From NCBI RefSeq assembly GCF_008107695.1, contig NZ_VIRG01000036.1:124001-188000 (forward strand): a stretch of 64,000 bases of DNA. The letters run 5' to 3'. Numbering within the stretch: the stretch's first letter is position 1; each line of letters starts with the position of its first letter. The translations under genes and the position numbers were made by a program. This DNA comes from Stappia sp. BW2. GTDB lineage: Bacteria; Pseudomonadota; Alphaproteobacteria; Rhizobiales; Stappiaceae. Shown piece by piece: positions 12,395-28,085 of the stretch. The notes beneath the pieces were generated by a model. It saw only the letters and a list, made by a program, of their open reading frames with translations, was not told where the DNA came from and did no database searches.

Positions 12395-14509
12395 TCAGCC
12401 CTTCGCATTCATCTCCGCAAAGGTTCCGCCGTTCTCGGCAATCTGCCGCAGGAGAGCCGGGACCTTCCAGTAGTAGGCGTCTTCCTTGGCATAGTCTTCG
12501 ATGCGGCGGACCAGTTCACCCGCACCGATGACATCGGCCGTGTGCAACGGGCCGCCGCGGAAGCGCGGGAAGCCGTAGCCGTTGAGGAAGACGGCGTCGA
12601 TGTCGATGGGGCGAAGGGCGACGCCTTCTTCCAGAACGCGCACGGCTTCGGAAATCATCGCGGTCATGAACCGGCTGACGATTTCCTCTTTCGTGAAGCT
12701 GCGCGGCGTCACGCCTGCCTTTTCGCGTTCCGCATCGATGATCGAAAGCGCTTCCGGGTTTGGCCGCGGGCCCTGGTCGTCATAGATGTAGAAGCCCTGG
12801 CCGGTCTTGCGGCCGAACCAGCCGTTCTCGCAGAGACGGTCGGCAATCGGAATGTAGCGTTCCTCGGCCGGGCGGGTGGCGGCGCGGCGCTTGTTGGCGG
12901 CCCAGCTGATGTCGAGCCCGGCAAGGTCGGCGACCTGGTAAGGCCCCATGGCAAAGCCGAAGCCGCGCATGGCTGTATCGATTTCCTCCGGCGAGGCGCC
13001 ATCCATCATCATGTAATCGGCGGCCTTCTTGTAGAAGGTCATGATGCGATTGCCGATGAAGCCGTCACAGACGCCCGAGCGCACGGCGATCTTCTTCAGT
13101 TTCCTGGCCAGCGCGAAACCGGTGGCGACAACGTCGGCGCCGGTCTTTTCGGCAACCACCACTTCCAGAAGCCGCATGACATGGGCGGGCGAGAAGAAGT
13201 GCAGGCCGATGACATCCTGCGGGCGCTCGGTCGTCGCCGCGATCTCGTTGATGTCGAGATAGGACGTGTTGGAGGCAAGCACGGTGCCCGGTTTGCAGAC
13301 CTTGTCCAGTGTCTGGAAAATGTCGCGCTTGACGCTCATTTCCTCAAACACGGCCTCGATGACGAGATCGGCATCGGACAGCGCGGCGAGATCCGTCGAG
13401 GTCTTGAGTTTGGCGGCCAGAATGTCGTCGCGGGCTTCACTGGAAAGTTTGCCGCGTTTGACGGCGCCTTCCAGGTTCCTGGTGATCGTTTCAACACCGC
13501 GGTCGAGGCCTCCCTGATCGCGTTCGGTCAGGGTCACCGGCAGGCCGGCCAGCAGGATAGCGGTCGCGATACCGGACCCCATGGTGCCGCCGCCGATGAC
13601 GCCAACGGCGTTGATGTCGCGCGTGGTCGCGGACGCTTCCGGGATCTTGGTGACGGCACGTTCGGAAAAGAAGGCATGGATCAGACCTGCGCGCTGCGGG
13701 CTTGCCATACATTCCTCGTACAGCCGGCGCTCTTCGGTCATGCCCTCGCGGATCGGCAGGTGGCAGGCTTCGACGGCGTCGACGCATTTGTGCGGCGAGA
13801 ACAGTAGTGGCTGGCTTTTGGCAAGCTTGGCGCGCATCGCTTCGATGGCGGCCCGGTCCGGTTCGGCGGTCAATTCGCCTGTCTTGCGGTTGGGCAGGTC
13901 GCCGGCCAGCAGATCCTTGGCCGAAGACAGTGCGATGTCACGCGGATCGCCCTCTACGATCCGGTCGATCAACCCGTTGGCCAGGGCATCGTCGGCACCT
14001 ATCGGCTTGCCGCTGGTGATCATGTCGAGGGCCACCGCGATGCCCGCAAGCCGGGGTGCGCGCTGGGTGCCGCCAGCACCCGGCAGAATGCCGAGCGTGA
14101 CTTCCGGAAGACCCACCTTCGCGCCCTTCAGCGCGACACGCGCATGGCACGACATGGCAACTTCCAGACCACCGCCAAGCGTGGTGCCGTGCAGGACACA
14201 GACAACGGGCTTCGACGCGTTTTCGATGAAATTGCACAGCTCGGGCAGCCACGGATCAAGCGGCGGCTTGCCGAACTCGCGAATGTCGGCGCCGGCAATG
14301 AAGGTGCGGCCCTTGGCATAAAGTGCGATCACCTCAACGCCATCCGTCTGCTGCAGCGTATCCACGGCCTGCCACAGTCCGGATCGGATGGCATGGGAGG
14401 CGGCGTTGACCGGCGGGTTGTCGAGGGCGATGAGGCCGACAGAGCCGTTGATCTCGATTGAGACGACGTCGTTGATACCGGTTTCGCCGGCAAGGGTTTC
14501 TGTAGGCAT
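12395..14509 (-). CDS. fadJ: Enoyl-CoA hydratase/3-hydroxyacyl-CoA dehydrogenase fusion (FadB/FadJ type)
   Basis: 704 aa from ATG 14509, chosen because GGGAGGA lies five bases upstream; an ATG at 14530 lacks this. The N-terminal crotonase domain (1 to about 190) has the oxyanion motifs FIAGADIREF and LHGTTLGGGLEVAMSCHARVA plus GLPEVTLGILPGAGGTQR. From about 297 a Rossmann domain starts VGVIGGGTMGSGIA, with VIEAVFEE, SNTSYLDI, GLHFFSPAHVM and GFIGNRI, followed by the doubled C-terminal dehydrogenase domain. It performs hydration and NAD-dependent oxidation of acyl-CoA in beta-oxidation. No thiolase partner lies next to it. It converges on the 5745-12171 acyl-CoA genes. Confidence 0.93.
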   Translation of the reverse strand: MPTETLAGETGINDVVSIEINGSVGLIALDNPPVNAASHAIRSGLWQAVDTLQQTDGVEVIALYAKGRTFIAGADIREFGKPPLDPWLPELCNFIENASKPVVCVLHGTTLGGGLEVAMSCHARVALKGAKVGLPEVTLGILPGAGGTQRAPRLAGIAVALDMITSGKPIGADDALANGLIDRIVEGDPRDIALSSAKDLLAGDLPNRKTGELTAEPDRAAIEAMRAKLAKSQPLLFSPHKCVDAVEACHLPIREGMTEERRLYEECMASPQRAGLIHAFFSERAVTKIPEASATTRDINAVGVIGGGTMGSGIATAILLAGLPVTLTERDQGGLDRGVETITRNLEGAVKRGKLSSEARDDILAAKLKTSTDLAALSDADLVIEAVFEEMSVKRDIFQTLDKVCKPGTVLASNTSYLDINEIAATTERPQDVIGLHFFSPAHVMRLLEVVVAEKTGADVVATGFALARKLKKIAVRSGVCDGFIGNRIMTFYKKAADYMMMDGASPEEIDTAMRGFGFAMGPYQVADLAGLDISWAANKRRAATRPAEERYIPIADRLCENGWFGRKTGQGFYIYDDQGPRPNPEALSIIDAEREKAGVTPRSFTKEEIVSRFMTAMISEAVRVLEEGVALRPIDIDAVFLNGYGFPRFRGGPLHTADVIGAGELVRRIEDYAKEDAYYWKVPALLRQIAENGGTFAEMNAKG

Positions 14510-18947: not shown

Positions 18948-18997
18948 TCATCTGAAGCTGTCCGCGTTCGGATGAATGCGGCCAGATGAGAAACCGG

Positions 18998-19024
18998 TCC
19001 GGGTGGGGCAGCGCTCCACCCGGA
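18998..19024 (+). other. Intercistronic hairpin
   Basis: TCCGGGTGG-GGCAGCGCT-CCACCCGGA forms a perfect 9-bp stem between the binding-protein and permease genes, 50 nt after the stop. No T-tract follows. It probably acts as a 3' stabiliser or partial terminator that sets the high binding-protein to permease ratio. Confidence 0.6.
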
Positions 19025-19054
19025 TCTCCCAACGGATTTGCGGAAGACTGTTTC

Positions 19055-20320
19055 ATGAGCGATACCCACGCGGGCGAGGTTCTGACGACGAAAGACGGCA
19101 AGCCGCTGAAGGCATCTCTTGCCAAGGCGCTGCGCCGCGAGAAGCTGCGCGCCCTGGCGCTGATTGCGCCTCTGCTGATTTTTGTTCTGCTCACCTTTGT
19201 AGCGCCGATCGTGGACATGCTGTTCCGCTCGGTCGAAAACGGGATCGTGGAAGACACTCTTCCCAAGACCGTTGTCGCTTTGCAGGAGTGGGATCCGACG
19301 TCCGGCCAGGCGCCTGACGAAACCGTCTTCGCGGCCCTTTATGACGACATGGTTGTCGCCGTGGAAGAGAAGACCCACACCCGCCTCGGTTCACGCCTCA
19401 ACTATGAGGAAACCGGCCTCTCCAGCCTGTTCCGAAAGACGGGACGTGGCGTCAAGCGTATGGATGAAGCCGGTCCCTACAAGGAACAGTTCATCGACGT
19501 GGACAAAGACTGGGGCACCGTCGAAACCTGGCAGGTGCTCAAACGGTTCTCACCGCGTTACACGCCCGGTTATTTCCTGAATGCCTTCGACGCGCAGCAA
19601 ACCGCAAACGGTATCGAACTGAAGCCGGAAGACGAACGGATCTACATGTTCCTGTTCGGCCGCACCCTGTTCCTGTCCGTCGCGATCACCTTGTCCTGTC
19701 TGCTTCTGGGCTATCCGATCGCGTACCTGCTGTCGGCCTTGCCACTGCGCTCGTCCAACCTGCTGATGATCCTGGTGCTACTGCCCTTCTGGACATCGCT
19801 TCTGGTGCGGACGTCCGCCTGGAAGGTGCTGTTGCAGCAACAGGGGGTCATCAACGATTTCCTTGTCTGGACAGGTATCATAAGTGACGCCGGACGACTT
19901 GTGATGATCAACAACCAGACAGGTACGATCATCGCCATGACGCATATCCTGCTGCCGTTCATGATCCTGCCGCTCTATTCGGTCATGAAAACCATTTCGC
20001 CGTCCTATGTGCGTGCGGCCAAGAGCCTTGGCGCCAATGACTGGACGGCCTTCTGGCGGGTGTATTTCCCGCAGACCATTCCAGGTATCGGCGCGGGTGC
20101 CGTGCTCGTCTTCATTCTGTCGATCGGCTACTACATCACCCCGGAACTGGTGGGTGGCACGTCGGGCATCTTCATCTCGAACCGGATCGCCTACCATATC
20201 TCGTCCTCGCTCAACTGGGGTCTGGGCGCGGCGCTCGGCACGTTGCTGCTCGTGGCGGTCATGGTCCTCTTTGTTGTCTACGACAAGATCGTCGGCATCG
20301 ATAACGTGAAACTCGGATAG
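19055..20320 (+). CDS. ABC transporter permease (PotB-like) with large periplasmic insert
   Basis: 421 aa from ATG 19055, with GGAAGA upstream; the open frame extends 23 codons further upstream without a good ribosome site. The first membrane segment is ALIAPLLIFVLLTFVAPIV near residues 30-50. About 150 mostly polar residues follow before the next helix (FLSVAITLSCLLLGYPIAYLL), a long periplasmic insertion compared with E. coli PotB (about 285 aa). The C-terminal half carries the MetI-type fold with the ATPase-contact EAA loop, here AKSLGANDWTAFWRVYFPQTIPGI. It pairs with the following permease. The insert may help dock the binding protein. Confidence 0.9.
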   Translation: MSDTHAGEVLTTKDGKPLKASLAKALRREKLRALALIAPLLIFVLLTFVAPIVDMLFRSVENGIVEDTLPKTVVALQEWDPTSGQAPDETVFAALYDDMVVAVEEKTHTRLGSRLNYEETGLSSLFRKTGRGVKRMDEAGPYKEQFIDVDKDWGTVETWQVLKRFSPRYTPGYFLNAFDAQQTANGIELKPEDERIYMFLFGRTLFLSVAITLSCLLLGYPIAYLLSALPLRSSNLLMILVLLPFWTSLLVRTSAWKVLLQQQGVINDFLVWTGIISDAGRLVMINNQTGTIIAMTHILLPFMILPLYSVMKTISPSYVRAAKSLGANDWTAFWRVYFPQTIPGIGAGAVLVFILSIGYYITPELVGGTSGIFISNRIAYHISSSLNWGLGAALGTLLLVAVMVLFVVYDKIVGIDNVKLG

Positions 20321-20328
20321 GTGGCGGC

Positions 20329-21183
20329 ATGAGTGCACTTCCTCCCTACGCGTCTCCTCTCCAGCGGACCTGGTACTATTCGTTCCGGGTGATCTGTGGA
20401 CTGATCTTCTTCTTCCTGATCTTCCCGATCCTGGTGATCCTGCCGCTCAGCTTCAACGCGGAGAACTTCTTCACCTTCACCAAGGAAATGCTGGCGCTTG
20501 ACCCGGCCGGCTATTCCCTGAAGCACTACCAGGACTTCTTCACCAATCCGGACTGGCAGCAGGCGCTGACCAATTCGGTGCTGATCGCGCCGGTGGCGAC
20601 AATCCTGGCAACGGGTTTCGGGACGCTGGCGGCCATCGGCCTGTCCCAGTCCCATGTGCCTTACAAGTCCGCGATCATGGCAGTGCTGATCTCGCCGATG
20701 ATCGTGCCGCTGATCATTTCTGCGGCGGGCATGTACTTCTTCTATTCGCGCATTGGTCTTCAGGGTACCTATTGGGGGGTCGTTCTGGCCCATGCCGCAC
20801 TTGGCACGCCTTTCGTCATCATCACTGTGACGGCGACGCTGGTCGGCTTCGACCGAAGCCTTGTGCGGGCATCGGCAAGCCTCGGTGCAAACCCGGTCAC
20901 CACCTTTTTCAAGGTGCAGATGCCGCTGATCATTCCAGGTGTCGTCTCCGGTGCGCTGTTTGCCTTCATCACGTCCTTCGACGAAGTGGTGGTGGTGCTG
21001 TTCCTCGGCTCTGCCGGTCAGAAGACCCTGCCTTGGCAGATGTTCACCGGGCTGCGTGAACAAATCTCGCCGACCATTTTGGCCGTGGCATCGCTGATGG
21101 TGGCTATTTCCATCTGTCTGCTGACTGTGCTGGAGCTGCTGCGCCGCAGGTCCGAACGCCTGAGAGGTCTGTCGCCGGGCTGA
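20329..21183 (+). CDS. ABC transporter permease (PotC-like)
   Basis: 284 aa with about six membrane helices, starting VICGLIFFFLIFPILVILPL. The EAA-type loop ASASLGANPVTTFFKVQMPLI contacts the ATPase. It is the second half of the heterodimeric channel. The ATG lies 6 nt after the first permease stop, with AGGTGGCGGC as ribosome site. It is the last transporter gene before the structured leader and terminator ahead of creatinase. Confidence 0.92.
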   Translation: MSALPPYASPLQRTWYYSFRVICGLIFFFLIFPILVILPLSFNAENFFTFTKEMLALDPAGYSLKHYQDFFTNPDWQQALTNSVLIAPVATILATGFGTLAAIGLSQSHVPYKSAIMAVLISPMIVPLIISAAGMYFFYSRIGLQGTYWGVVLAHAALGTPFVIITVTATLVGFDRSLVRASASLGANPVTTFFKVQMPLIIPGVVSGALFAFITSFDEVVVVLFLGSAGQKTLPWQMFTGLREQISPTILAVASLMVAISICLLTVLELLRRRSERLRGLSPG

Positions 21184-21226
21184 TCCCGGACGGGCGTGAA
21201 GAGCGCCCCGCTGCTTTCAAATTGAG

Positions 21227-21272
21227 CCGGTGGCGGAACGCCAGTCACCGGGTGGAGACAGGGTCTCCCGGT
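21227..21272 (+). promoter_or_regulatory. Structured leader with two mutually exclusive hairpins upstream of creatinase
   Basis: Hairpin A is CCGG-TGGCG-GAA-CGCCA-GT-CACCGG (21227-21251). Hairpin B is ACCGG-GTG-GAGAC...GTCTC-CCGGT (21247-21272). Both need the bases 21247-21251, so they cannot form together. An intrinsic terminator follows 29 nt later, and creatinase starts 51 nt after that. The order alternative stems, terminator, coding start is what an attenuator or riboswitch looks like. It does not match a known riboswitch class that I recognise. Confidence 0.45.
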
Positions 21273-21300
21273 AGCATGACATTGTGAATTTGGGCCTGGC

Positions 21301-21333
21301 GGGCCGGCTTCTTCGCGGAAGCCGGCCCGTTTT
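21301..21333 (+). terminator. Rho-independent terminator between importer operon and creatinase
   Basis: GGGCCGGCTTC-TTCGCG-GAAGCCGGCCC is a perfect 11-bp GC-rich stem followed by GTTTT. An outer pair GGGCCTG (21292-21298) with CAGGCCC (21340-21346) can enclose it. It would end or attenuate transcription before creatinase, so creatinase needs either read-through or its own promoter in a very short space. Confidence 0.8.
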
Positions 21334-21383
21334 GCGTTTCAGGCCCCGGAAACCGAAACCGGACCAAACGGAAGGAGCCTTCA

Positions 21384-22613
21384 ATGAGCAACGACATGAT
21401 CCGCATTTATGAAATGAACAACGGAGAGAAGGCGTTTTCACCCTTCTCAGCCGCCGAAATGGACAGCCGCCAGGCGAAGCTTCGCAAGCTGATGGAAGAC
21501 CGGCAGATAGATGCCGCCCTGTTCACCTCCTATCACAACATCTGCTACTACTCGGGCTTCCTCTATTGTTACTTCGGCCGCAAGTACGGCTTCCTGGTGA
21601 CCCAGGACAAGGCAACCACGATTGCAGCCGGTATCGATGGGGGCCAGCCCTGGCGCAGGACCCATGGCGATACGGTGATCTATACCGACTGGCGCCGGGA
21701 CAATTATTTCCACGCCATCCAGTCACTGCTTGGCATGCCCAATCCGTCGGTCAAGCGCATCGGCATCGAGTACGATCACGTTTCCCTCGACATGCTGAAG
21801 CTTCTGGAAGCGGCGCTGCCGGGTGTGGAACTGGTCGATATTGCTGCCGATGCCATGGCGCAGCGCACGATCAAGAGCGACGAGGAGCACGTTCTGATCC
21901 GCGAGGGTGCGCGCATCGGTGATATCGGCGGGGCAGCCTTGGTAGAAGCGGTTCAGGCCGGTGTTCCCGAGCACGAAATCGCCATGGCCTCGACCAATGC
22001 CATGATCCGGGAAATCGCGAAGTCCTTTCCGTTCGTTGAACTGATGGACACCTGGACCTGGTTCCAGTCGGGTCTCAATACGGACGGAGCCCACAACCCG
22101 GTGACCAACAAGAGGGTGGAAGCGGGCGACATCCTCAGCCTCAACTGTTTCCCGATGATCTTCGGCTATTACACCGCACTGGAGCGGACGTTGTTCTGTG
22201 AATATGCTTCCGACGAACATCTGCGCCTGTGGGAGATCAACTGCCATGTTCACCGCGAGGGGCTGAAGCGCATCCAGCCGGGCGCACGCTGCTGCGATAT
22301 CGCAACCGAGCTCAACGACATCTACCGCAGCCATGATCTCCTGAAATACCGCAGCTTCGGCTACGGTCATTCCTTCGGCGTGCTCAGCCATTACTACGGC
22401 CGGGAAGCCTCGGTGGAACTGCGCGAGGATGTCGAGACCGTGCTTCAGCCAGGCATGGTCGTTTCCATGGAACCGATGATCATGATCCCGGAAGGTCAGG
22501 CCGGCGCGGGCGGTTATCGCGAACATGACATTCTGATCGTCACGGAAGACGGGGCTGAAAACATCACCGGCTTTCCGTTCGGCCCGGAGCACAACATCGT
22601 GCCAAAACGATAA
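21384..22613 (+). CDS. Creatinase (creatine amidinohydrolase, EC 3.5.3.3)
   Basis: 409 aa of the pita-bread M24 fold. It resembles Pseudomonas creatinase almost block by block as I recall it: FTSYHNICYYSGFLYCYFGR, NIDGG-like GIDGGQPWRRT, VIYTDWRRDNYF, DTWTWFQSGLNTDGAHNPVT (with the catalytic His), ILSLNCFPMIFGYYTALERT, FGYGHSFGVLSHYYGREAS and VSMEPMIMIPEG. The family lacks the metal ligands of true aminopeptidases and hydrolyses creatine to sarcosine and urea. Length agrees (about 405-410). A GGAAGGAGCC site precedes the ATG. Its place after a complete ABC importer argues for uptake and use of creatine as nitrogen/carbon source. Sarcosine oxidase and urease are not in the window. A close relative acting on another guanidino acid remains possible. 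Confidence 0.93.
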   Translation: MSNDMIRIYEMNNGEKAFSPFSAAEMDSRQAKLRKLMEDRQIDAALFTSYHNICYYSGFLYCYFGRKYGFLVTQDKATTIAAGIDGGQPWRRTHGDTVIYTDWRRDNYFHAIQSLLGMPNPSVKRIGIEYDHVSLDMLKLLEAALPGVELVDIAADAMAQRTIKSDEEHVLIREGARIGDIGGAALVEAVQAGVPEHEIAMASTNAMIREIAKSFPFVELMDTWTWFQSGLNTDGAHNPVTNKRVEAGDILSLNCFPMIFGYYTALERTLFCEYASDEHLRLWEINCHVHREGLKRIQPGARCCDIATELNDIYRSHDLLKYRSFGYGHSFGVLSHYYGREASVELREDVETVLQPGMVVSMEPMIMIPEGQAGAGGYREHDILIVTEDGAENITGFPFGPEHNIVPKR

Positions 22614-23088: not shown

Positions 23089-23610
23089 ATGCAGGCACCT
23101 TCTGAAGGCATATCCTTGAATTCCGGTCTGCCGCAGATGATTCACCTGGATTTGGACATCAAGGACTTTTGCACCGACTGGACCCATTGCGATCTCATGT
23201 CGGGGTACATCGCCCGGATGGTCAGCCACAACCGGCTGGATTCGCTCCTGTTCTCCAATCTCTATTCGTCGGCCTTGAACGAACTGCTGGAAGCCGTCTA
23301 CCGGACGCATGGTTCGAGCGGAAAACTGCAATGCGCGGTTCAGCGCGACGGCAATGTCGACCGGATCGAACTGACCTTTCCGGTCGATGAGGAGACCTAC
23401 AAGGTCTACGAGGCGGCGATTGCCAAAGTAAACGGCGATGACGCCGAAACGCTGTATCTGGAGGCGCTTTTTGCTGACGCCGAACCGGATGCGAGTCTTG
23501 GACTTTTGGAACTCGGCGTCGATTACGGCGCCCGGCTTGCCATCGGACGGATTGAAGACGGCCGCATGAGACTGGTCGCGGAGCTTGTGCTTGAGGACGA
23601 CGCAGAATGA
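23089..23610 (+). CDS. Degenerate slr1658-type (SiaB-like) HATPase protein, predicted pseudokinase
   Basis: 173 aa. It lines up along its length with the kinase-like protein at 27170. WTHCDLMSGYIARMV matches WHHCGLTSDFIGEYF, SSALNELLEAVYR matches SYMINEILENAIK, and ASLGLLELGVDYGARL matches GSGLGLLTLMSDYEAKL. The N-box Asn that chelates Mg-ATP (LENA in the paralogue) is Ala here (LEAV), and the GSG of the G-box is lost, so ATP binding and kinase activity are unlikely. It may act as a binding partner. The stop overlaps the next start by ATGA, tightly coupling it to the STAS-methyltransferase fusion. Confidence 0.7.
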   Translation: MQAPSEGISLNSGLPQMIHLDLDIKDFCTDWTHCDLMSGYIARMVSHNRLDSLLFSNLYSSALNELLEAVYRTHGSSGKLQCAVQRDGNVDRIELTFPVDEETYKVYEAAIAKVNGDDAETLYLEALFADAEPDASLGLLELGVDYGARLAIGRIEDGRMRLVAELVLEDDAE

Positions 23611-24785
23611 TCGCTGATAATATGACACAGGCCTTTCAGTGGACCTTTAACGAGAACGATCAGGAGTTCTCCCTGCATGGCAGCTTGCGCCCCGAGCGGG
23701 CCGATGAGCTGAATGGCTGCTTTTCCGCGATGGAGCAGTCCGTCGGCAAGGTGAGCGGCAAGTTCTACGTCAATGTCAGACGCCTTGTGCGCATGAACAA
23801 CGTCGCCTTCCATGCCTTTGCCGGCAAAATTCTGGATCTTGTGCGCAACCGAAGCGACCTGAGCGTTCACGTCACGACCTCGAGCGTGGTTGGCTGGGCA
23901 ACGCGCAAGTTCGCCGTGCTTGAGACAATGTCCGACAAGATCACCGTCAGCGAATACGACAACGAATTCTATCCGGGTCAGTCGTTCGTTGAGGACAGCG
24001 AGTTCATTCATGTTCTGCGGACGCAGACCAAACTTACCTGGCGGCACGAAAAGGAACTTCTGCGCAAGCACGGCCTGAAACCGGGCATGCAGGTGGCCGA
24101 CATTTGCTGCGGCATCGGCGATTTTGCCGTGCTTCTGCAAAAGGAATTCGAGCCGGATAGGCTGGTCGCACTGGACCACTCCAGATCCAGCCTCGACTAT
24201 GCGCGCCGTGTCGCGGCCGATTTCGGTGTCAGGGGCATTGAATACGTCTTCGGCGATGCTGCGGACATGCTGCTGGAAGACAATCAGTTCGATTTCGTGA
24301 CCTGCCGCCATTCCCTGCAGGTTTTCGACCAGCCGGAGCTGATCCTGAAGGAGCTTTACCGCATCTGCAAGCCGGGTGGCCGTATCTACGTTACCAACGA
24401 AAAGAACTCGCACTGCCTTGGCGAACCGAGATCGGAAAGCATTCAGTGGACCTACAATGAGGTCGCCAAACTCTGGCACCATTTCGATATGGATATCGAA
24501 ATCGGCCCGAAGAGCCGGCGCCTCCTGATCGACGGTGGCTTTGAAAATGTGACCATCGGGTCCTTCATGGTCACCAACACGGATGGCGATCCGCAGGACT
24601 TCGCGGATGTGATTGCGTCGTGGAAAAATCTCTTTGCCGGCAAAATGGCTGAGGAACGCGGCGACAGCGCCGAATTCATCGAACGTTTCGCCAAAGGGTT
24701 CGACGACCATATCTTCGCAGCGCTCCATCCCAAGGGATATGCAGGCTGGCCGATCTGGGTTGCTTCGGGACGTAAGCCGCTATGA
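23607..24785 (+). CDS. STAS-like (slr1659-type) domain fused to a SAM-dependent methyltransferase
   Basis: 392 aa. Residues about 8-130 resemble the STAS protein at 27747: FSLHGSLRPERADELN corresponds to IHYEGTMRLSGTDAYA, and LVRMNNVAFHAFAGKI to LEFLNSSGINLLAKF. The phosphoacceptor Ser of NSSGI is missing (NNVAF). From about 140 a class I methyltransferase follows: ADICCGIGDFAVLL (motif I) near 164, ALDHSRSSLDYARR, FDFVTCRHSLQVFDQPELIL (motif IV) and LKELYRICKPGGRIYV. The UbiE/COQ5-like core would transfer a methyl from SAM to an unknown small molecule or protein. Overlaps of 4 nt on both sides show coupling to the pseudokinase and the phosphatase. I know no characterised protein with this fusion. 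Confidence 0.75.
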   Translation: MIADNMTQAFQWTFNENDQEFSLHGSLRPERADELNGCFSAMEQSVGKVSGKFYVNVRRLVRMNNVAFHAFAGKILDLVRNRSDLSVHVTTSSVVGWATRKFAVLETMSDKITVSEYDNEFYPGQSFVEDSEFIHVLRTQTKLTWRHEKELLRKHGLKPGMQVADICCGIGDFAVLLQKEFEPDRLVALDHSRSSLDYARRVAADFGVRGIEYVFGDAADMLLEDNQFDFVTCRHSLQVFDQPELILKELYRICKPGGRIYVTNEKNSHCLGEPRSESIQWTYNEVAKLWHHFDMDIEIGPKSRRLLIDGGFENVTIGSFMVTNTDGDPQDFADVIASWKNLFAGKMAEERGDSAEFIERFAKGFDDHIFAALHPKGYAGWPIWVASGRKPL

Positions 24786-27166
24786 ATGCACCTGTAACGG
24801 ATCCTCAGACCGAAAAGCAGATCGGCCGCTTTTCCATGCGAAGCTTTCGGGCCAAATTCATGCTTGTGGTCGGCGTCGCAGTTCTGTTCGATCTCGCGCT
24901 CGCCGGCGGCATCGGCATCTGGAACGTGCAGAAACTGTCCAGGGATGCGACGGAGCAGGTCGGTGAAGGTCTGACCACCGCCACGGAAGACTATCTGCAG
25001 ACCTATATCGACACCACGGCCTTCCGGGCCGACCTCCTGATTGAGCGCGTCCATTCCGAACTTGAGACGCTCGCCTCGTCGATGCAGACACTGATCGACC
25101 ACCCGCAGGTGCAGGAAGCGGTCGGAAACACCATCGAAGGCAGTCCAGCGTTTTCGTCTGACCTGGTCTATGACGAAACGGGCGGCTGGTCGCAGAATAC
25201 GGCGGGTGTTCCGTCTGCGGTCAGCGTCTGGGGTTATTTGCTGGATGAAAACAAGAACCCGGTTCCCAAGGCCGCCGAAGAGCTGAAGCACAGTTCCTTC
25301 CTCAGCCTTGTCGGTCCGTCGATGATGTCGACAGGCGCGCCTAAGCTGCAGATCTACTACGTCGGCCCCAAGGACGCGTCGATCATGCGTGCGACGCCTT
25401 ATTCGGAACAGGCGCAGACATTCGACCTCTTGTATCCCGGTCACAACGAAGGTGCGAACTTCTGGGATTTCTTCTTTCCCGGCGTCTACGAAGGCTGGCA
25501 GGACTGGATCAAGGATCCGTCCTCCAGACCGGTGGACTCCAATATCGTCACCACCGCCCCCTATATCGATGCGATCACGGGCAAGCTGATCGTCAGCTTC
25601 TTCCATCCCCTGTGGACGCAGGATCGCAAGGACGTTGCGGGCATGGTCGCGGTCGACATCACGCTTGAGCAGCTGACCTCGCTTGTCGAAAGCCTTGAGA
25701 TCTCGGAAAACGGCTTCGGTTTCCTGACGATGTCCGACGGCAATGTCGTGGCAACTCCGAAGGCCGGCGAACAGACCCTGGGTCTGGTCTCCAGCGATGT
25801 CAGCGGCCAAGGGGTGACCGGCGTGAACCGGAACCTCAAGGAAAGCAGCCAGCCGGCCATCGCGTCTCTTGAGCTGAGCGCCAAGGACGAGACCGTCATC
25901 CAGCACATCTTCCTTGAGAACGATGGCGAAGAGATCCCCTATCTTCTGGTTCTCAAGCAGCTCAATCCGACGAACCTCTGGGATGGTGCCGGTATCACCT
26001 CGGAAACGATGACGCTCGGTTTCGTCGTGTCCGAACGCGAGATCTACCAGTCGCTGATCGATGCCACCAACAACATCTCGGAAGCGACGGCCCGCATTCT
26101 GAACTATCAGCTCATTGCTTTCTGCGTCAGTATTTTCGTGGTGTTCGTCGCGGTCTATGCCATCTCCGGCCGCATCACCAAGGGCCTGTCACAACTGGCC
26201 GAAGCGGCGCGCGCCCTTCAGAACAAGGACTATTCGGTCCGCGTTGCCATTCCGACCCGCGACGAGGTCGCGGCTGTGGGGCTGGCCTTCAACCGCATGG
26301 CGGAAGAGATCAGCTATCACACCGAGAACCTTGAGAATCTCGTTGAGGAGCGCACCAGCAAGCTGGAAACCGCGAACCGCGAAATCGGCGAGCTCAACAA
26401 GCGGTTGAAGTCGGAAAACCTGCGCCTCGGGGCGGAACTGGATGTTGCCAAGCGCATTCAGGAAATGGTTCTGCCGCGCCTCAGCGAACTGGAAGTCATT
26501 CCGCAGATCGAGATTGCCGCCTTCATGGAACCGGCGGACGAGGTCGGCGGCGATTATTACGACGTTCTGTTCGACGGCAGCCGCATCAAGGTCGGTATCG
26601 GCGATGTGACCGGCCATGGTCTGGAAAGCGGCGTCCTGATGCTGATGGTGCAGTCGGTTGCCCGGGCGCTTCAGGAAAAAGGCGACAAGGACCCGATCGC
26701 CTTCCTGGATGTGCTGAACCGTGCCGTCTACAAGAACATCACCCGCACCAGATCCGACAAGCACCTGACGCTCGCCTTCGTCGATTATGAGGACGGCCAG
26801 GTCACCCTGTCCGGCCAGCATGAGGAAGTGCTGATCATCCGTGCCAATGGAGACACCGAGCGCATCGATACGATGGATCTCGGTTTCCCGGTCGGGCTAG
26901 AGGCTGATATTTCTCCCTTCGTGGCGACACTGGATCTCGCGTTCGGACCGGAGGACATTCTCATCCTGCACACGGACGGGATCACGGAGGCGGAAAACGA
27001 CAAGGGCGAGATGTATGGCCTCGACCGGCTTGCCCAGAGCGCTCATGAAAACCGCGAAAAAACCGCGAAAGGTATTGCGGCGGCGGTCATTCATGATGTG
27101 AAGTCGCATATCGGCGACTACAAGGTATTTGATGACATCACTCTTGTTGTGTTGAAGCATAGGTAA
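24782..27166 (+). CDS. Membrane sensor PP2C (SpoIIE-type) phosphatase: Cache-HAMP-PP2C
   Basis: 794 aa. TM1 is at about 26-47 and a periplasmic double-Cache sensor spans about 50-435 (ends with LVLKQLNPTNLWDG). TM2 follows near 441-464, HAMP near 465-517 (SGRITKGLSQLAEAARALQ), and a coiled coil with LVEERTSKLETANREI near 520-560. The phosphatase domain is at about 570-792. Its metal-binding motifs are intact: VGGDYYDV, GDVTGHGLESG, HTDGITEA and the final FDDITLVVL. It should dephosphorylate the Ser of the STAS antagonist in response to an extracellular ligand, as SiaA, HmpW or RsbU do. It overlaps the fusion gene by ATGA and lies 3 nt before the kinase gene, placing it at the centre of the five-gene operon. 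Confidence 0.9.
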   Translation: MNAPVTDPQTEKQIGRFSMRSFRAKFMLVVGVAVLFDLALAGGIGIWNVQKLSRDATEQVGEGLTTATEDYLQTYIDTTAFRADLLIERVHSELETLASSMQTLIDHPQVQEAVGNTIEGSPAFSSDLVYDETGGWSQNTAGVPSAVSVWGYLLDENKNPVPKAAEELKHSSFLSLVGPSMMSTGAPKLQIYYVGPKDASIMRATPYSEQAQTFDLLYPGHNEGANFWDFFFPGVYEGWQDWIKDPSSRPVDSNIVTTAPYIDAITGKLIVSFFHPLWTQDRKDVAGMVAVDITLEQLTSLVESLEISENGFGFLTMSDGNVVATPKAGEQTLGLVSSDVSGQGVTGVNRNLKESSQPAIASLELSAKDETVIQHIFLENDGEEIPYLLVLKQLNPTNLWDGAGITSETMTLGFVVSEREIYQSLIDATNNISEATARILNYQLIAFCVSIFVVFVAVYAISGRITKGLSQLAEAARALQNKDYSVRVAIPTRDEVAAVGLAFNRMAEEISYHTENLENLVEERTSKLETANREIGELNKRLKSENLRLGAELDVAKRIQEMVLPRLSELEVIPQIEIAAFMEPADEVGGDYYDVLFDGSRIKVGIGDVTGHGLESGVLMLMVQSVARALQEKGDKDPIAFLDVLNRAVYKNITRTRSDKHLTLAFVDYEDGQVTLSGQHEEVLIIRANGDTERIDTMDLGFPVGLEADISPFVATLDLAFGPEDILILHTDGITEAENDKGEMYGLDRLAQSAHENREKTAKGIAAAVIHDVKSHIGDYKVFDDITLVVLKHR

Positions 27167-27169
27167 GGC

Positions 27170-27715
27170 ATGGTCGAGGATTTTGGAGAGACGACGGCTG
27201 TGAACGGCGGAGACGCGAGACAGTTTTGTCTCACGTTGAAGGCAGAGCCGCTGGAGCTGAGCTGGCATCACTGCGGCCTTACGTCGGATTTTATCGGGGA
27301 ATATTTCAGCCGGGCCTGCGGCAAGGGCATCGACCAGGTCGATGCGCGCCACAGCATCAGTTACATGATCAACGAGATCCTTGAAAATGCGATCAAGTTC
27401 CGTCACGGCGGTGACGTCACGATTCACAGCTCGCTGGAAGAACAGACCTTCGAAATCCGGATCGTGAACTGCATCGACCACGAAACGGCCACAAGGTTTC
27501 AAGGTCACCTGAAAAGCCTACTCGAACGCGAACCGGGAGAGCTGCTTCTGGAGCGTATCGAGGAGAACGCCCTTGACCCGGATTCCTCCGGCTCGGGCCT
27601 CGGTTTGCTCACACTTATGAGCGACTACGAAGCCAAATTGGGCTGGTCTTTCGCGTCTGAGCGTGTAAGTGAAGGCGTTGAGTTGACGACATATGCGTCT
27701 TTGCGACTTTCCTGA
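27170..27715 (+). CDS. slr1658-type HATPase anti-sigma-like protein kinase
   Basis: 181 aa. GHKL ATPase fold with N-box SYMINEILENAIKFRHGG, a degenerate middle part, and G-box DSSGSGLGLLTLMSDY. These elements match the slr1658/SiaB family, whose members phosphorylate a cognate STAS protein on Ser. Unlike the paralogue at 23089, the Mg-binding Asn and the GxG are present. It sits between the PP2C phosphatase (3-nt gap) and the STAS protein (31-nt gap), giving a complete kinase/phosphatase/STAS partner switch. ATP-dependent kinase activity is inferred. Confidence 0.82.
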   Translation: MVEDFGETTAVNGGDARQFCLTLKAEPLELSWHHCGLTSDFIGEYFSRACGKGIDQVDARHSISYMINEILENAIKFRHGGDVTIHSSLEEQTFEIRIVNCIDHETATRFQGHLKSLLEREPGELLLERIEENALDPDSSGSGLGLLTLMSDYEAKLGWSFASERVSEGVELTTYASLRLS

Positions 27716-27746
27716 TCGCTGACAAATTCCAAAGGAAGATACCAAA

Positions 27747-28085
27747 ATGGAAATCAGCACGAACGATTACCGCGTTTGGACTGAAGGCTCCGACATCCAC
27801 TACGAAGGAACGATGCGGCTTTCAGGAACGGACGCCTATGCCCCTATTCTGGAGATCATGAATTCCGTTCTGGCAGCCAAGCCGGAGCTTATCACCATGG
27901 ATCTGACAAGCCTGGAATTTCTGAACAGCTCCGGCATCAACCTGCTCGCCAAATTCACGATCGAAATCAGAAAGCAGCCGGAAGTCGGCGTTCGCGTTCT
28001 CGGGTCCAAGTCCATTCCCTGGCAGTCGAAATCGCTCCGCAACCTGCAGCGTCTGCACCCGGCGCTTGAACTGACGATTTCCTGA
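27747..28085 (+). CDS. slr1659-type STAS anti-sigma-antagonist-like protein
   Basis: 112 aa. Single STAS domain: MRLSGTDAYAPILEIM, then LITMDLTSLEFLNSSGINLL, with the Ser of NSSGI as the predicted phosphoacceptor. AAAGGAAGA precedes the ATG. In characterised switches the phosphorylated and free forms bind different partners (kinase versus an output protein such as a diguanylate cyclase or sigma-factor inhibitor). No cyclase or sigma gene is present here; the likeliest local output is the upstream STAS-methyltransferase fusion, which is inference. Confidence 0.85.
   Translation: MEISTNDYRVWTEGSDIHYEGTMRLSGTDAYAPILEIMNSVLAAKPELITMDLTSLEFLNSSGINLLAKFTIEIRKQPEVGVRVLGSKSIPWQSKSLRNLQRLHPALELTIS

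Follow-up and report, generated by a model that had tools for sequence, protein, structure and literature searches.

A bgr-type partner-switch locus with an old, apparently inactive kinase/STAS pair and a probable adenylate cyclase effector encoded at a distant site

The window, a 64,000-nucleotide stretch of Stappia sp. BW2 DNA, includes a cassette of five genes transcribed in the same direction, which are referred to here as S, T, U, W and V.

23089-23610, + strand: S, pseudokinase with the SiaB/SpoIIAB fold, slr1658 superfamily below cut-off, 173 amino acids
23607-24785, + strand: T, STAS-like N-terminal domain (approximately residues 1-118) fused to a class I SAM methyltransferase (approximately residues 137-392)
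24782-27166, + strand: U, Cache-HAMP-PP2C (SpoIIE-type) sensor phosphatase, 794 amino acids
27170-27715, + strand: W, apparently intact kinase, slr1658 superfamily (NF047703, 178.6 bits), 181 amino acids
27747-28085, + strand: V, stand-alone STAS protein, slr1659 superfamily (NF047705, 142.1 bits), acceptor motif NSSGI

The pairs S/T and T/U overlap by 4 bp each, while gaps of 3 bp and 31 bp separate U from W and W from V, respectively. These measurements bear out the coordinates and the order pseudokinase, STAS-methyltransferase, Cache-HAMP-PP2C, kinase, STAS given in the original prediction, as well as its statement that the genes overlap or nearly touch. The region ahead of the cassette (18986-22613) contains genes that, from reading of the sequence, we take to code for ABC transporter permease-like and M24 peptidase-like proteins, and similar neighbors are found in several other loci.

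A scan of a genome contig collection with T identified 64 loci, nine of which (L096-L104) matched the methyltransferase domain only and were dropped, leaving 55 with a full-length T. T is present in these 55 loci by construction; S, U, W and V are not. The order S-T-U-W-V, with all genes on the same strand, was found in the window and in all 55 loci, which answers the survey of gene order that the original prediction had proposed. According to the titles of the records the loci belong to Roseibium/Labrenzia, Rhizobium, Sinorhizobium/Ensifer, Mesorhizobium, other Alphaproteobacteria, and one Chloroflexi-labelled MAG (L095, 36% identical), the taxon of the latter being that of the record label only. 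A search seeded with W, which avoids the bias toward T, detected W in 28 genomes among 121 relatives, and S in the same 28. Among 398 genomes of the phylum W was above cut-off in seven: S and T accompany it in the genome of the window, G095, G221, G366 and G386; G285 has an S-like match 4 kb upstream; and neither S nor T was found within the 14 kb read in G173. The five-gene feature is therefore confirmed as conserved and general rather than the product of local decay, and its conservation across 55 loci rules out a local oddity.

A Sinorhizobium meliloti operon, reportedly described by Baena et al. in 2019, is said to carry the six-letter name bgrRSTUWV. Plasmid pSymB of S. meliloti 1021 has six genes, GGDEF-EAL, S, T, U, W and V, in an order that fits R-S-T-U-W-V, and the letters used here were assigned by gene order and by the reported roles of U, W and V. 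In the available portions of two reports BgrSTUWV is described as a partner switch that modulates the diguanylate cyclase BgrR, with BgrU and BgrW setting the phosphorylation of BgrV (PMC8457831, PMC7647112). The bgr operon and the window have the same order and strand of S, T, U, W and V, and the T proteins are 65.5% identical. On the other hand, bgrR adjoins the operon whereas the window lacks bgrR and has a different gene upstream, and L041, with 93-99% identity to the window over its five genes, likewise gave no BgrR match. As judged by gene content and order, the cassette in the window is a bgr-type locus consisting of the five-gene core S-T-U-W-V without an adjacent bgrR. The locus type was already known as bgrSTUWV, a fact that the original prediction missed together with the probable main output, which lies outside the locus. 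The accessible portions of PMC10315480, PMC3616915, PMC8457831, PMC7647112 and PMC8546604 contain no description of a function of BgrS or BgrT or of a cyclase output, the main bgr paper being beyond reach. The GGDEF-EAL gene bgrR is adjacent to the cassette in 26 of the 55 loci, and all 26 proteins read AGDEF at the signature motif instead of GGDEF; BgrR is nevertheless reported as a diguanylate cyclase (PMC8457831, PMC7647112).

The two kinase/STAS pairs were compared at the following positions.

27386-27388, + strand: W Asn73, N-box Asn, conserved in 56/56 copies
27927-27929, + strand: V Ser61, predicted phospho-acceptor, within NSSGI in 56/56 copies
23293-23295, + strand: S residue 69, Ala instead of the N-box Asn, which is lost
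23488-23508, + strand: S DASLGLL at the G2-box place, where W has GSGLGL (56 cassette copies, 66 proteins)
23799-23801, + strand: T residue 65, Asn where a STAS phospho-acceptor Ser would be expected
24093-24125, + strand: T SAM-binding motif I, VADICCGIGDF

U matches the SpoIIE (E=2.8e-37), HAMP (E=7.2e-12) and dCache_1 (39.1 bits, below the cut-off of 45) models, and its PP2C Asp motifs are invariant in the 56 copies (window plus 55 loci). The scores of W against slr1658_superfam and of V against slr1659_superfam are both over the cut-offs of 100. W has the N-box Asn, the G1 Asn and GSGLGL in the window; both Asn residues are present in 56/56 copies, and the exact GSGLG in 50/56, the other six reading ASG, SSG or GSS. 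The position of the V acceptor at Ser61 is one that we assume by analogy to SpoIIAA-type proteins. Comparison with the PDB sequences rendered only weak STAS matches for V (best E=0.001). The residues needed for control of V phosphorylation by U and W are intact in the 56 copies.

The relationship of S and T to this pair was established with profiles. S scored 85.5 bits (E=3e-24) against slr1658_superfam (NCBIfam) and the T N-terminal domain 25.9 bits (E=9.4e-6) against slr1659_superfam, in both cases under the curated cut-off of 100. Profile-profile comparison (hhalign) gave 97.8% for S with W and 95.8% for the T N-terminal domain with V, the control of the T N-terminal domain with W being 0.2%. 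The original prediction depended on both members of the first pair being homologous to the slr1658/slr1659 families, and these values make that homology clear. The STAS assignment of the T N-terminal domain is a profile-based one, as the list of folds barely covered the STAS half of the T model. As for SiaB, the link of the cassette to this protein rests on the fold of S, since the W profile did not reach SiaB and a search of the PDB sequences with W found no useful match. Several public records title S homologs 'ubiquinone biosynthesis methyltransferase UbiE'; the domain search found no methyltransferase match in S, and the title probably comes from the neighboring T.

The original prediction also held that W keeps the N-box Asn and GSG while S has lost both, and this description proved correct well beyond the window. 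In the window S has no N-box Asn, no G1 Asn and no GSGLGL, with DASLGL at the G2 place, and neither the N-box Asn nor the exact GSGLG was found in any of the 56 S copies, compared with 56/56 N-box Asn residues in W. When the window and 65 aligned sequences out of 78 S proteins found were considered (66 rows), residue 69 was Thr in 54, Ala in 10, Ile in two, and Asn in none. Judged by these residues (N-box Asn 0/66, GSGLG 0/56), S does not have the catalytic GHKL protein kinase signature. The same applies to the claim that V keeps the phospho-Ser (NSSGI) and the fusion protein reads NNVAF: NSSGI is found in 56/56 copies of V versus 0/56 copies of T. The T site reads NNVAF in the window and NN[VTIL]A[FY] in 55/56 copies, with NAEGI in the Chloroflexi-labelled L095. 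Among T homologs (best 120 of 968) NN[IVTL][AG]F is found in 120/120, and the acceptor Ser is absent from all 120. The methyltransferase site fused in T is intact, with the Asp and both Gly residues of motif I and the Asp of the following LDH conserved in 56/56 copies. These comparisons support the notion that the double loss in S/T, of nucleotide-site residues on one side and of the phospho-acceptor on the other, is fixed and old.

S and T could also be regarded as duplicates in decay that regulate nothing by themselves, in line with the long branch of S and with its variability, which is the highest among the five proteins (mean distance 0.54). S is nevertheless maintained by purifying selection because its dN/dS values are low, ranging over 0.02-0.09 when close pairs are compared and reaching 0.28 among wider ones, partly at high dS. 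It is also present in 56/56 copies and has 19 invariant columns over 66 sequences. The dN/dS values and the fixed residues rule out decay, a most improbable explanation. Glu65 of S (23281-23283), near the lost N-box Asn, is the likely catalytic base by analogy to SpoIIAB; since it is invariant in 66/66 pseudokinase rows, part of the old S active site seems to be still under constraint.

A tree built from 23 loci places S and W on either side of a branch with 99/97 support, and each L095 copy falls with its own kind. The same separation, again with matching L095 copies, is seen for the T N-terminal domain and V (SH-aLRT 95, quick tree). The branches leading to S are of great length, and this topology is subject to long-branch warnings. 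The most economical interpretation is that the kinase/STAS pair was duplicated once, long ago, and that one copy then lost catalysis and was long conserved. A role of S/T as a second, phosphorylation-independent output is plausible, and the idea of the original prediction that S and T may dock on each other and read out the state of W/V is a reasonable one. It could be argued instead that S, rather than pairing with T, acts as a decoy that titrates free V or as a heterodimer partner of W and thereby tunes the W/V switch, with T, held directly by W, substituting for a sigma factor. SpoIIAB-fold proteins are dimers, and the partial correlations of distance matrices (30 dereplicated rows) for S-V (0.49) and W-T (0.42) are as strong as that for S-T (0.38), with W-V at 0.24 and T STAS-V at -0.17. 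These values are noisy, and they are weak evidence because an implausible pair, U and the T methyltransferase, scores as high (0.46); furthermore, the 4-bp overlap of S and T is found in 51 of the 55 loci, with starts chosen mechanically. We consider this alternative somewhat unlikely. The positive correlations of all four kinase-STAS combinations and the negative one between T STAS and V fit a competition, and they do not single out the S-T pair.

The genes upstream of the cassette define three classes among the 55 loci: bgrR immediately precedes the cassette in 26, a divergent PP2C gene is present in 21, and eight, namely seven Roseibium/Labrenzia loci and L095, have neither. The divergent PP2C (17 loci by a first ORF clustering, 21 by direct search) is located upstream on the other strand and has an N-terminal coiled coil that reads approximately LLYEATIEHGEAVEDQL. 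No locus has both bgrR and the divergent PP2C, with the partial exception of L093, which is counted in the PP2C class and also has two weaker GGDEF-EAL matches (38% and 34%) further upstream. Extra STAS and RsbW-like genes, which we name from reading of the sequence, are found near the coiled-coil PP2C upstream of the cassette in L045, L050, L052 and L092, and downstream of the cassette in L057, with an extra STAS gene only in L046. This arrangement suggests a second partner switch linked to the first.

The coil is not restricted to PP2C. In L095 the next gene after V (12459-13445) codes for a class III cyclase with a related coil. In the genome of the window the coil query gave a single match, in the gene of a class III cyclase located on a different contig (G000:C17, at about 1073 kb). 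The catalytic domain of this protein matches PF00211 (E=1.2e-25), and the metal Asp, substrate Lys/Asp and Asn/Arg signatures are visible in its translation. Such signatures are taken to denote an adenylate rather than a guanylate cyclase. Among 37 listed cyclase relatives 32 match all three patterns and five miss one or more.

The distribution of this cyclase within the genus follows that of the cassette. The coil-cyclase is found in 27/27 cassette-positive and 0/18 cassette-negative genomes, four of the latter having matches to the cyclase part without the coil, and in two of the 27 a PAS-like insert lies between coil and cyclase. The gene is located between the same two flanking genes, presumably RarA-like and patatin-like, in 25 of the 27 genomes, and the flank differs in the other two. 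In all 18 cassette-negative genomes the stretch analyzed includes both flanking genes and shows no cyclase match at E 1e-5; the gap between the flanking genes varies up to about 1.2 kb. A tree of the patatin-like gene from 43 of the 45 genomes, the two rearranged ones being excluded, requires nine or more changes of the trait, seven of them forced by starred branches. All seven independent pairs agree (sign test, p = 0.016), an agreement that is forced because the cassette and cyclase traits are identical in all 43 rows. The coil-bearing PP2C is present in 17 of the 27 cassette-positive genomes and absent from that of the window.

Outside the genus, a search for the coil in 5.8 billion proteins, which admitted lengths of approximately 183-583 residues and relatives sharing short words, yielded 96 proteins, all of them either cyclases (37, including one with a PAS domain) or PP2Cs (59); the GGDEF form described below was not listed. 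One of these proteins, P0271, is a coil-bearing PP2C from a eukaryotic protein set with 93% identity over half of the coil, and probably represents bacterial contamination. The coil is found in two of 398 sampled genomes of the phylum, both with W and one being that of the window. Among 44 genomes reached through the loci, it is present in 17 of the PP2C class and in that of L095. The 17 genomes, all from outside the genus, have the coil only in PP2C, and for this reason the cyclase is not the general output. Since 0/26 genomes of the BgrR class have the coil and BgrR itself lacks the motif, the coil marks one effector class only and is not a universal dock for V. Partial matches to the coil-cyclase in seven BgrR-type genomes (from position 14 or later) were rejected, all eight being ordinary cyclases without the coil, and the one partial match in a genome of the PP2C class is likewise an ordinary cyclase without it. 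A third type of coil-bearing gene, coding for a GGDEF protein with a related coil, was found in a distant proteobacterium (G173); it adjoins a W/V-type pair, a PP2C gene is nearby, and S and T are missing from the 14 kb read. This locus (L196, G173:C96) is a Sia-like set of coiled-coil GGDEF, W, V and PP2C genes, and its W is over the slr1658_cyano cut-off (253 bits versus 200). A weak slr1658-like match (37 bits, below cut-off) near PP2C-like and GGDEF-like matches in L199 (G368:C161) is possibly another such switch.

We propose, with a probability of about 0.6, that the window harbors a bgr-type core in which the second-messenger effector has been exchanged, with a distant coil-bearing adenylate cyclase placed under V and with S/T relaying the signal to a methyltransferase. 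U, a predicted membrane sensor phosphatase, and W, its kinase counterpart, would set the phosphorylation state of V, as orthology to BgrU/BgrW/BgrV indicates. V would then dock on an effector, which in this genus would most likely be the distant class III adenylate cyclase with its short conserved N-terminal coiled coil. A docking role is suggested for the coil because coil-bearing genes adjoin the switch in three settings. A model for this contact, on the coil of the cyclase and also on that of the PP2C, is offered by Pseudomonas aeruginosa SiaABCD, in which the STAS-like regulator SiaC is reported to grip the coiled-coil stalk of SiaD. The divergent coil-bearing PP2C would be a second likely effector in 17/27 genomes, that of the window not being among them. 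S and T would be an old duplicate of W/V that has lost the phosphotransfer site and the acceptor and carries an intact methyltransferase site. As their anatomy suggests, S most likely binds STAS domains without phosphorylating them, and the T methyltransferase would follow the same switch. The cassette in this genus may thus be a partner switch that controls cAMP. A more general proposal is that the core swaps effectors (BgrR GGDEF-EAL, coil GGDEF, coil PP2C, coil adenylate cyclase) while the dead relay copies the signal to a methyltransferase, rendering one phosphorylation-dependent and one independent output and, in this genus, control of cAMP; we regard it as tentative, at close to even odds.

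The cyclase and the cassette might be inherited together because both serve one process, V making no contact with the cyclase. In this genus the cyclase gene is far from the cassette and the contact of its product with V is putative; bgr-type loci elsewhere have a different adjacent effector, and the tree behind the co-inheritance was built on a single gene that adjoins the cyclase, which is a weakness. Against this explanation, which we consider unlikely, the coil is found on genes adjacent to the switch as the divergent PP2C in 21/55 loci, as the cyclase after V in L095, and as the GGDEF gene beside W/V in G173.

BgrR has no coil, whereas for the window the likely effector, encoded at a distance, is a class III cyclase that bears one. 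HAMP-PP2C proteins are common to the cassette and to SiaABCD, U scoring 127 bits (E=6.8e-37) against a SiaA model with a cut-off of 700. SiaB-fold proteins are also found in both, although W reaches only 18.9 bits against the SiaB model (cut-off 85). SiaC belongs to DUF1987, whereas V matches STAS/slr1659 with no DUF1987 match listed, and SiaD is a diguanylate cyclase encoded in its operon, while the cassette codes for no GGDEF protein. To our knowledge a pseudokinase/STAS-methyltransferase pair is not part of Sia. The SiaC-SiaD stalk is likened to the contact of V with the coil by analogy; the coil has no significant match among the PDB sequences and none to SiaD, the three matches obtained being at chance level, to a eukaryotic protein and a fusion construct. 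Switches of the RsbU/RsbV/RsbW type are sigma-factor switches, and they share with the cassette the fold and the presumed chemistry of the three-part switch. They differ in that no sigma factor is encoded among the five cassette genes, whose likely outputs are second-messenger enzymes and a methyltransferase.

What would be new is the fixation of the dead pair and, to a greater degree, the exchange of effectors, here probably in favor of an adenylate cyclase. If this is true, a former kinase and its former substrate have been kept as a binding pair over long evolutionary distances with a methyltransferase attached, and the same switch has been rewired between c-di-GMP and cAMP through a short coil that different enzymes carry for docking. 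For a symbiont operon already under study, the S and T genes would then become directly testable, and the coil would be a motif for finding effectors of partner switches encoded far from their switch.
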